From: a virus
Direction: 5' to 3' (one strand)
Virus record (IMG/VR): IMGVR_UViG_3300042898_000725
Span: 1 to 37,699 of that record
DNA length: 37,699 nt
Part shown: one piece after another, positions 29,200 through 32,123 of the stretch
Layout of the letters: the number at the start of each line of letters is the position of its first letter
How positions within the stretch are numbered: position 1 is the first letter of the stretch
Position numbers and translations under genes: made by a program
The notes under the pieces: generated by a model
Told to the model about the DNA's origin: nothing
The model's database searches: none
The model's input: only the letters and a program-made list of their open reading frames with translations

Positions 29200-29928
29200 T
29201 TAGTCTTTCGCAAATAGTTCAGGCCGTTCCCAATTGCGGCGCATTTTTTCTAGTTCTGGGTACTTTGTAGCTAGTCTGTCTATCGTATCTAATTGGCGGC
29301 GCAAAGTACGGGTGGACATATTTTTTTCTGCCATCTGCCGTGCTGGGGTTGCGGTAGCAAAATATTCGTTAATAATTTCGTAAGGGTCGGTTTGATCGCG
29401 TACCGAAGGCAATTCGCTAAGACGTATGTCAGTCATCATGTCTTCAAATCTATCGCGCGGCATTTGGTCTTTTAATTGTTTTGCAGGATGCGTGCGAAGT
29501 TTTTTCCCCGGCGCCAAATTCATACGTGCGTGTGAAGATTCGTGCAGCATAGTGTGCAACGCATTAAGCGTCTGTTCGGTCGTGGTGTCGCTGCCCATAC
29601 CAATGTAACCATATTTACCGTAAGGTTCCATTAACATAGTGTTAACGCCGTCAGGGGCAAGCGCAATTGTGCGTTTAAAGGTGTCAAATTCACCGGCATT
29701 AGTTTCGCCGCGCGGCATAAAGGTTGTTACTGTTGCTGGTGAAGTGGCTACATACTCGGGAAACTGCGCGCGCATTAGTTCTGGCAGCAAAGCAGAATAA
29801 ACATTAAGCGCGGCTTTGCGGCCTTTTTCTGGGCTACCTACGCTTTTAAACGCGTACAGCCTTTCGTAAGGCGACATGTTTAGCGCATTAGCTGGCGTGG
29901 GTGCGAGCGCGTTCGTTGGCTGTGGCAT
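29200..29928 (-). CDS. Putative zinc metallopeptidase (HExxH) between the terminase genes
   Basis: The 242-residue protein has LHTMLHESSHARMNLAPG, whose HESSH (residues 129-133) fits the HExxH zinc motif. E188 in EIINEYFATATPARQ is a possible third ligand, as in gluzincins. No signal peptide or membrane span is present. It overlaps the small terminase gene by 41 bases and ends 3 bases before the large terminase start. A sampled 60-base line is about 47% GC against 63% for a line in the large terminase, so it may be an insertion. Roles could be maturation of a virion protein or attack on a host protein; neither is shown. An internal ATG at 29877 is an alternative start. Confidence 0.75.
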   Translation of the reverse strand: MPQPTNALAPTPANALNMSPYERLYAFKSVGSPEKGRKAALNVYSALLPELMRAQFPEYVATSPATVTTFMPRGETNAGEFDTFKRTIALAPDGVNTMLMEPYGKYGYIGMGSDTTTEQTLNALHTMLHESSHARMNLAPGKKLRTHPAKQLKDQMPRDRFEDMMTDIRLSELPSVRDQTDPYEIINEYFATATPARQMAEKNMSTRTLRRQLDTIDRLATKYPELEKMRRNWERPELFAKD

Positions 29929-30343
29929 TTTCCAGATACTCCGGTTTCTGTTCGGTGATCAGCCCATCGATGACGCGTTCCTGCGCCTGTTGCAGCGCCT
30001 GCGTGATGCTGATCTTGTTCGTGATGTCCACGCTGATCTCCTGACGTGCTGTCCAGCCGTGGACGTGCTGCAGGATAGCCAGCGCCGCTTTGGCGTCGCC
30101 AGACCGGGCAGCTTCTCTCAGGTGGGCGCTGGCCTCGATCTCGGAGTCAGCGCGGCCCTTCATCGCAGCCATGTCCGCAGCAGGATCCAGTTCGCACAGC
30201 TGCCTAAACTCGGTGGGCAGCATGCCAGCAGCCAGCGCTAACGAGTCGCCTTTCAGTCCAAGCGCAGCAGCGTCATAGATCGCCTGGAGGCGTGACTCAG
30301 TCGCTTCCACTTTACGCGGGGTGAATGGGATTGATTTGAACAT
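29888..30343 (-). CDS. terS: Terminase small subunit
   Basis: The 151-residue protein has a helix-turn-helix-like N-terminus (ATESRLQAIYDAAALGLKGD, then SLALAAGMLPTEFRQLCELD), a central helical EIEASAHLREAARSGDAKAA stretch and a C-terminal tail. This matches phage small terminases that recognise the packaging site and stimulate the large subunit. It is the first gene of the late operon and borders the repeat-rich control region. Confidence 0.85.
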   Translation of the reverse strand: MFKSIPFTPRKVEATESRLQAIYDAAALGLKGDSLALAAGMLPTEFRQLCELDPAADMAAMKGRADSEIEASAHLREAARSGDAKAALAILQHVHGWTARQEISVDITNKISITQALQQAQERVIDGLITEQKPEYLENATANERARTHAS

Positions 30344-30359
30344 GGCTGCATATTAGCGC

Positions 30360-30389
30360 ATTTGTGGGTCATGTTGGTTACCCACAAAT
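30360..30389. repeat. Inverted repeat upstream of the small terminase gene
   Basis: ATTTGTGGGT (30360-30369) and ACCCACAAAT (30380-30389) form perfect 10-bp arms around a 10-base spacer, 17 bases before the small terminase start. It uses the GTGGGT core of the iteron family, so it may be the operator through which the iteron-binding protein controls late transcription. Confidence 0.75.
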
Positions 30390-30468
30390 AGTTGAATTAA
30401 AAAAATAAAAAAAATTGTTTGCGGAACCTCCGTTTTCGAGACCGGCCAGCCGCCGGCCCCCCACCCCC

Positions 30469-30607
30469 CAGGTTAGTAAGCACTCACTTACAGTTGCTAG
30501 GCTGACAAGTTAGTAAGCACTAACTAACCAGGTTAGTGAGTACTCACTAACGGTTGCTAGCCTGGCAAGTTAGTGGTCACTAACATATCAGGTTAGTGGT
30601 CACTAAC
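30469..30607. repeat. 60-bp tandem repeats containing five GTTAGT/ACTAAC dyads
   Basis: Unit 1 (30469-30528) and unit 2 (30529-30588) are 60 bases each with 12 differences (80% identity). A partial third copy covers 30589-30607. Each full unit has two dyads separated by a GTTGCTAG(G/C)CTG(A/G)CAA spacer. Dyads lie at 30472-30491, 30509-30528, 30532-30551 (perfect 20-bp palindrome), 30569-30584 and 30592-30607 (both GTTAGTGGTCACTAAC). Centre spacings alternate between about 36 and 23 bases. This is an array of binding sites for a dimeric protein. Confidence 0.9.
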
Positions 30608-30630
30608 TATTAGCAAACTGCTATCAAATC

Positions 30631-30639
30631 TGTGGATAA
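30631..30639 (-). promoter_or_regulatory. Perfect DnaA box
   Basis: TGTGGATAA is the complement of TTATCCACA, the high-affinity DnaA box. It follows the dyad array by 23 bases and precedes a T-run. One 9-base match alone can arise by chance, but its place between two repeat arrays supports an origin. Confidence 0.7.
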
Positions 30640-30704
30640 CTTTTTTGTTGCCATTTTGAGATGTGGGTCATGTGGGTTATTCTCGATGACCCACAATTTT
30701 TCTG

Positions 30705-30775
30705 TTTAAAATCAAGGGTTTAGGGCGTTTTGCCCTTTTTGCGCCAGAAAAAAGCCCTTTAAAATCAAGGGTTTA
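30705..30775 (+). repeat. 18-bp perfect direct repeat pair
   Basis: TTTAAAATCAAGGGTTTA occurs at 30705-30722 and again at 30758-30775, 53 bases apart (about five helical turns). A weak hairpin AGGGC/GCCCT with T residues lies between them. Role unknown. Confidence 0.8.
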
Positions 30776-30841
30776 AAGCGTGGGTCATTTAGGGCCCTTT
30801 TTTTCAAGTCGTCGGCTGCGTACGGCGTGGGGCATGGGGGG

Positions 30842-30876
30842 CTATACAGCAAACTACTGTATAGAACTACTGTATA
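30842..30876. repeat. CTGTATAG repeats: one inverted pair and one direct pair
   Basis: CTATACAG (30842-30849) and CTGTATAG (30857-30864) form 8-bp inverted arms. AACTACTGTATA occurs at 30852-30863 and 30865-30876, one base apart. These may be sites for another regulator. Confidence 0.75.
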
Positions 30877-31041
30877 AAATATAAATTCTAGCTTTACAGA
30901 TTTAATGACCCACATGACCCACAAAATGCCAAAAGCTAGTAGCAGACTAGGTTATCGCGTGGGTCATCCGCGCCATTTTCATGACCCACAAACTGCCCAA
31001 ATGACCCACAAAAAAACCCAAAAATAAATGCAAAACATTCC

Positions 31042-31069
31042 TTGACATTTATTTTGTTGTCGCTATAAT
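31042..31069 (+). promoter_or_regulatory. Consensus sigma-70 early promoter
   Basis: A perfect -35 TTGACA (31042-31047), a 16-base spacer and a perfect -10 TATAAT (31064-31069) point right. Transcription should start near 31076, 60 bases before the first early gene. Six of the nine ATGACCCAC sites lie in the 270 bases upstream, so it may be controlled by the same protein. Confidence 0.9.
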
Positions 31070-31478: not shown

Positions 31479-32123
31479 ATGAAAATCTCTGTTACTTCAA
31501 AACTTGACGGCGTGCGCTCATGGTCTCTGCAGGCACTCGAAACTTGCCCGGGCTCGATAGCGGCGCCTGGCCAGCTGGTCGACGCCTGCGCAGGATGCTA
31601 CGCCACGACCGGCAACTATAGGTTCGAGAATGTCAAAGCGCCGCGCAGGCACAACAAGGAAGACTGGCAGCGGATCGAATGGTGCGACGATATGGCACGC
31701 GAACTAGCCAAAGATACGCACTTTCGCTGGTTTGATTCGGGCGATATGTACACGCTCGCTTTGGCCGAAAAGATTCTCGAGGTTATGCGTCGCACGCCAT
31801 GGGTGAAACATTGGCTACCGACACGGATGCACAAGTTTCCGAAATTTCGGCAAGTATTGTCCGAAATGCAAGCGCTGAAAAATGTATGCGTGCGGTTCTC
31901 GAGCGATTCAGTGACGGGCCAGTACACAAAAGGTTTGCACGGTTCCGTCATTATCCCGACACCCGACGATGTCAAGCGCGGTATGACGCTCTGCGGCGCA
32001 TATGACAATGGCGGCGCTTGCGGCCCGTGCCGTGCCTGCTATGACAAGCGCGTCAAGGTGATTGCTTACCCTGCGCACGGCGTCAAGATGAGCAAAGTGA
32101 TCCGCATCAAATTGGCCGCTTAA
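31479..32123 (+). CDS. GP88-family cysteine-rich protein, possible Fe-S enzyme
   Basis: This 214-residue protein fits the phage Gene product 88 family: KLDGVRSWSLQALETCPGSI, then DACAGCYATTGNYRFENVKA and FRWFDSGDMYTLALAEKILE. Cysteines group as C23/C37/C40 near the start and C172-x8-C181-x2-C184-x2-C187 (CGPCRAC) near the end, with H200. Such spacing suits one or two metal centres, probably Fe-S. The SGD motif (87-89) is conserved in the family as I know it. No reaction is known. AGGGGA precedes the ATG. It is the largest gene of this early operon. Confidence 0.8.
   Translation: MKISVTSKLDGVRSWSLQALETCPGSIAAPGQLVDACAGCYATTGNYRFENVKAPRRHNKEDWQRIEWCDDMARELAKDTHFRWFDSGDMYTLALAEKILEVMRRTPWVKHWLPTRMHKFPKFRQVLSEMQALKNVCVRFSSDSVTGQYTKGLHGSVIIPTPDDVKRGMTLCGAYDNGGACGPCRACYDKRVKVIAYPAHGVKMSKVIRIKLAA

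Follow-up and report, generated by a model that had tools for sequence, protein, structure and literature searches.

A tandem array of SlmA-site-like dyads upstream of a phage small terminase gene as a candidate DNA element for host division control

The nucleoid-occlusion factor SlmA, a member of the TetR family, stops cell division across the bacterial chromosome. Its consensus site, GTAAGTGAGCGCTCACTTAC, is bound by two SlmA dimers at a 4:1 SlmA:DNA ratio (PMC4423959), and the same consensus oligonucleotide has been used elsewhere (PMC7468209); the 12-bp core of the site is GTGAGTACTCAC (PMC3116907). DNA-bound SlmA disassembles FtsZ polymers (PMC4423959; PMC4117426). An E. coli cell contains 300–400 SlmA copies and 24–52 chromosomal sites (PMC4423959), and in this species a multicopy plasmid with two tandem SlmA sites blocks division, with lethal effect and only when SlmA is present (PMC3573117; PMC4117426). 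Phage proteins that inhibit FtsZ are also known, e.g. Kil of phage lambda (PMC3961180).

The window analyzed here, a podovirus contig, is an entire IMG/VR virus record of 37,699 bases and has P22-like portal and coat genes. A non-coding stretch of ~0.75 kb separates a leftward packaging operon from the rightward genes. The first gene of the leftward operon, at 29888–30343 on the minus strand, is assigned as terS (small terminase subunit) from its position before terL and a match to an annotated TerS in related phages; its product has no Pfam or PHROG match. Tandem Repeats Finder (TRF) identifies a 60-bp repeat array of 2.4 copies in the intergenic region upstream of terS, at 30468–30609 (repeat score 179, 80% matches), with two full units that are 82% identical. 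A GC-rich element, CCGGCCAGCCGCCGGCCCCCCACCCCCCAG, flanks the array at 30442–30471, and a DnaA-box consensus, TGTGGATAA, the sole one in the window, lies on the other flank at 30631–30639 on the plus strand.

An earlier note, made from the DNA letters alone, had described two units and a partial third sharing about 80% identity, with palindrome centers alternating between about 36 and 23 bases apart; this description is borne out, the measured center-to-center spacings being 37, 23, 35 and 23 bp. The same note read the array as five GTTAGT/ACTAAC palindromes. Five SlmA-site-like dyads are indeed present, but the plain GTTAGT-N4-ACTAAC form is confined to sites 4 (30569–30584) and 5 (30592–30607), both of which are the 16-bp GTTAGTGGTCACTAAC with 0 mismatches to GTNAGTNNNNACTNAC. 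The other three are 20-bp dyads, each with 0 mismatches to GTNAGTNANNNNTNACTNAC: site 1, GTTAGTAAGCACTCACTTAC (30472–30491, plus strand), in which the right arm is ACTCACTTAC and not ACTAAC; site 2, GTTAGTAAGCACTAACTAAC (30509–30528, plus strand); and site 3, GTTAGTGAGTACTCACTAAC, a perfect palindrome (30532–30551). They differ from the published SlmA consensus at 3, 5 and 4 of the 20 positions, respectively. The array is not a chance occurrence, because the window matches the dyad pattern 7 times when as many as 3 mismatches are allowed (both strands counted), versus 0.02 expected in shuffles. Sites within 4 mismatches of the SlmA consensus number two in the window, both inside the array, and none occurs in 60 dinucleotide shuffles of the window. 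The array is thus a real element, and it is conserved.

Several other repeats are present in the region. The sequence GTGGGTCAT occurs in nine copies and in both orientations at 30364–31009 around the array, with 10 copies in the window versus 0.2 expected; in relatives, these positions are occupied by different repeated words (ATGTTGGCTATG or ATGTGGACAATG, for example), homogenized within each phage. The intergenic region also contains, at window positions 30705–30781 and 30852–30877, a direct repeat of 24 bp around TTTAAAATCAAGGGTTTA and a tandem pair of 13 bp, AACTACTGTATAG. No Rfam family is found in the array region.

A TerS protein search of IMG/VR yielded 239 related stretches; the 80 best loci among these were retained, and a TerL search added more. 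The array is located at the same place, directly upstream of terS, in most relatives with enough upstream DNA. In 81 loci whose TerS shows 73% identity or more, five is the usual number of sites, the outer positions GT-A, AGT, ACT and T-AC are near-invariant, and positions 7, 10, 14 and 18 are variable; a few of the loci that have a zero in this tally do contain the array, displaced farther from terS by an insertion (offsets near 800). The 16-bp form accounts for 138 of the 308 sites in the window-phage family. The earlier note had attributed the well-kept arms to selection for protein binding, to be checked by their conservation in related phages and given up if they were not conserved. The arms are conserved in these relatives, which supports such selection. 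The note placed the spacings close to whole helical turns for some pairs only, and helical phasing is not conserved across the family: spacings cluster at 21, 23–25, 29–30 and 37–40 bp within a full range of 20 to 54 bp, and phase coherence is weak (0.21 at 10.5 bp), without a helical lock. Five relatives (L050, L085, L125, L108 and L131; TerS 74–89% identical) keep the GC-rich flank, and other DNA replaces the array; the exact DnaA box is also kept in all of these except L085. Because these close relatives retain flanks without the array, the array is, on comparative grounds, an optional and dispensable module.

Similar arrays are widespread among other phages. Two pattern scans of IMG/VR identified at least 116 loci where two or more sites are clustered. 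Among the matches listed, a terminase gene pointing away from the array lies within the nearest four genes at 104 of 116 loci, and the array is usually positioned between divergent operons. Among the remaining 12, some are truncated where the contig stops or come from the same families, two (L202 and L266) have a PHROG-recognized TerS nearby, and L308, L317, L310, L333, L349 and L223 have arrays located elsewhere, away from the terminase operon. At the loci listed the array adjoins at least five TerS types with no BLASTP similarity to one another, and between groups the TerL proteins are mostly 20–38% identical where they match at all. Such a spread over unrelated phages is not explicable by the protein of one phage family and therefore points to a host protein as the binder. 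One of the two patterns was also run against 84,980 species genomes of bacteria and archaea; of its ten matches only L277 is clustered, and this is a phage contig within a betaproteobacterial bin, of which it may be a member by chance. A three-part pattern search of viral sequences gave one locus, exact 20-mer searches matched only one environmental phage record, and no array was returned when cultured phages and plasmids were searched by BLAST.

Some of these loci have features of their own. The most regular array among the loci seen is in L170, where six sites at 715–874 have an exact 28-bp period. In L200, L204, L207, L209 and L243, GCACCA-N2-5-TGGTGC palindromes, up to five of them in L209, are found beside SlmA-type arrays; these resemble sites of the host regulator NtrC, and in some phages there may be arrays that serve further host proteins. 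Drexlerviridae coliphages contain GTTAGTGGTCACTAAC as a single site, within a 22-bp match (E = 5, for which chance is a possible explanation); in one such coliphage the site lies in a large divergent intergenic region (L293, 2999–3022; MN840485.1, 36409–36430).

The dyads closely resemble SlmA-binding sites. E. coli SBS17, GTTAGTGACCATTTACTTAC, has 0 mismatches to GTNAGTNANNNNTNACTNAC, as do window sites 1–3, which share the 20-bp dyad form of the SlmA consensus and SBS17. The 12-bp core is exact in site 3, at 30536–30547; sites 1 and 2 contain variants of it, and its center is shortened in sites 4 and 5. The pattern matched no phage origin or operator known to the earlier note, and no described one was found here, but the note missed that the dyad is a known host site. 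Of 80 genomes in the bacterial order of the L277 bin, 59 have an slmA that passes the NCBIfam cut-off, and the L277 bin itself has slmA. The recognition helix SEAALYRHF is invariant between E. coli SlmA and 11 betaproteobacterial SlmAs. The best matrix matches fall in the origin half of the chromosome in 13 of 15 cases, versus 44% for permuted matrices (p ~9e-4), a result of a small and weak test that comes from two genomes, includes orthologous pairs and has a terminator-hairpin-like top pair; for one genome, G113, 1.2 of 1.9 Mb was used. Such an origin-half bias is expected of chromosomal SlmA sites. Matrix-match numbers are not raised in chromosomes of the order, nor do its 80 genomes show an excess of the 20-bp form or the 12-bp core by count. 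The counts of these two forms carry little information, because reversing the pattern makes a poor control and chromosomal sites are degenerate.

Candidate binders encoded by the phage were also considered. No TetR domain is present among the families listed (25 of 34) for the 58 window ORFs, many small ORFs being without a family match; a direct search for TetR_N was negative for the window record and gave a single hit across 17 other phage contigs. An early phage protein, as proposed in the earlier note, is disfavored as binder because the motif adjoins unrelated phage genes and no TetR-type protein is detected in the window phage. Host SlmA is the most likely binder, rather than TerS or a phage repressor, because the array adjoins unrelated TerS types, some close relatives lack it, and a search of the window phage revealed no TetR protein. 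A different TetR-family protein of the host, recognizing a similar site, may be the binder instead.

If SlmA does bind, the five-site array would act as a cluster for the host protein, with each site taking a pair of dimers. Multiplication of the phage genome would then supply many sites; by our own arithmetic, 250 extra ones for fifty genomes carrying five apiece. SlmA drawn onto phage DNA would break FtsZ polymers and keep the Z-ring off that DNA, such that the infected cell would not divide across replicating and packaging phage DNA. The gain may lie in a larger cell, in phage DNA being shielded from the septum, or in SlmA being drawn off the nucleoid. We infer that the host of the window phage has SlmA, that SlmA binds the array, and that division is blocked in infection. 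Taken as a whole, an array of SlmA sites serving division control in the infected cell appears to be the best explanation, with a probability slightly above even; for division control as the function of the array, considered alone, the chances are about equal. It is similarly a balanced proposition that many unrelated phages share a protein-free division-control element built from SlmA sites, whether independently acquired or exchanged among phages of SlmA-bearing hosts.

Transcriptional regulation via SlmA is the main rival. Here SlmA or another host TetR-family protein would bind the array to control transcription of the divergent terminase and early operons and would hardly affect division. 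The usual location of arrays between divergent operons fits this reading, as does the finding that V. cholerae SlmA can activate a promoter whose start lies 167 bp downstream of the SlmA site (PMC5519180). It is nevertheless unlikely. The rightward genes have a perfect sigma-70-type promoter, TTGACA-16-TATAAT (31042–31069, plus strand; 12 of 12 consensus bases), that lies 434 bp beyond the array, the position and number of sites vary without helically locked spacings, some arrays lie away from the terminase operon, close relatives do without one, and no general regulatory role of SlmA has been reported in E. coli (PMC3116907). Regulation by a phage protein, with the array as operator of a phage repressor or of the neighboring GP88 protein, is extremely improbable. 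The GP88-family gene (PF17338, a family of unknown function) is the rightward divergent neighbor at 31479–32123 and is also found in several unrelated array phages, but it is present in just 10 of the 46 records searched, 9 of them above the cut-off, and GP88 is rejected as binder on this count. For repressors more generally, no TetR protein is found in the window phage; other repressor types are possible among its many small ORFs without a family match.

Recognition by the packaging machinery would account for the location of the array, directly upstream of terS across the window-phage family and beside terminase operons in other phages. In this case, phage TerS would bind the repeats to start packaging, in a pac or cosB-like manner. 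However, one motif stands beside five TerS types unrelated by BLASTP and the sites do not co-vary with TerS type, phages with TerS up to 89% identical have no array, some arrays stand apart from the terminase, and the motif matches a known host-protein site. TerS is rejected as binder given the five unrelated TerS types and the array-less close relatives, and a packaging signal is improbable. The GC-rich element, kept in relatives with and without the array, is a possible candidate for the packaging site. An iteron-type replication origin bound by a phage initiator, the remaining alternative, draws on the DnaA box that follows the array in most relatives and on A-rich stretches close by. It is very improbable: the repeats are not the regular direct repeats of such an origin, being irregularly spaced over 20 to 54 bp with weak phase coherence, the array-less L050, L125, L108 and L131 retain the DnaA box, and the motif is common to phages of unrelated gene content. 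The packaging, origin and repressor readings each fail at least one test.

If division control by SlmA sites is confirmed, phages would block or steer host division with DNA alone, borrowing the nucleoid-occlusion protein of the host. It would explain a conserved intergenic element of many uncultured phages, and provide a sequence signature by which phages of SlmA-bearing hosts could be recognized. The dyad site is known; the phage-borne array of such sites is new with respect to the open-licence literature searched, in which none is described. Lambda cosB and SPP1 pac are terminase recognition sites, with repeated sites just upstream of terS, whereas the array motif is found beside unrelated TerS types and is absent from close relatives with conserved TerS. 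Kil-type inhibitors resemble the array in the proposed outcome, a block of host division during infection, but they are proteins or peptides, whereas the array would be a protein-free DNA element acting via a host protein. The chromosomal SlmA-binding sites of E. coli and Vibrio cholerae share the 20-bp dyad form and the 12-bp core with the array, and SBS17 fits the array pattern. These sites are scattered and mostly single, whereas phage arrays pack three to eight sites into about 150–250 bp of non-coding DNA. The engineered multicopy plasmids with tandem sites, pHC534 and p2SBSK, also place several SlmA sites on a multicopy replicon (PMC3573117, PMC4117426). Their outcome is a lethal division block, and by analogy the same is predicted for the phage array. 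Unlike these plasmids, the array is natural, kept by selection, and carried on a phage genome; if the division-control reading holds, it would be a natural counterpart to the engineered SlmA-site plasmids.
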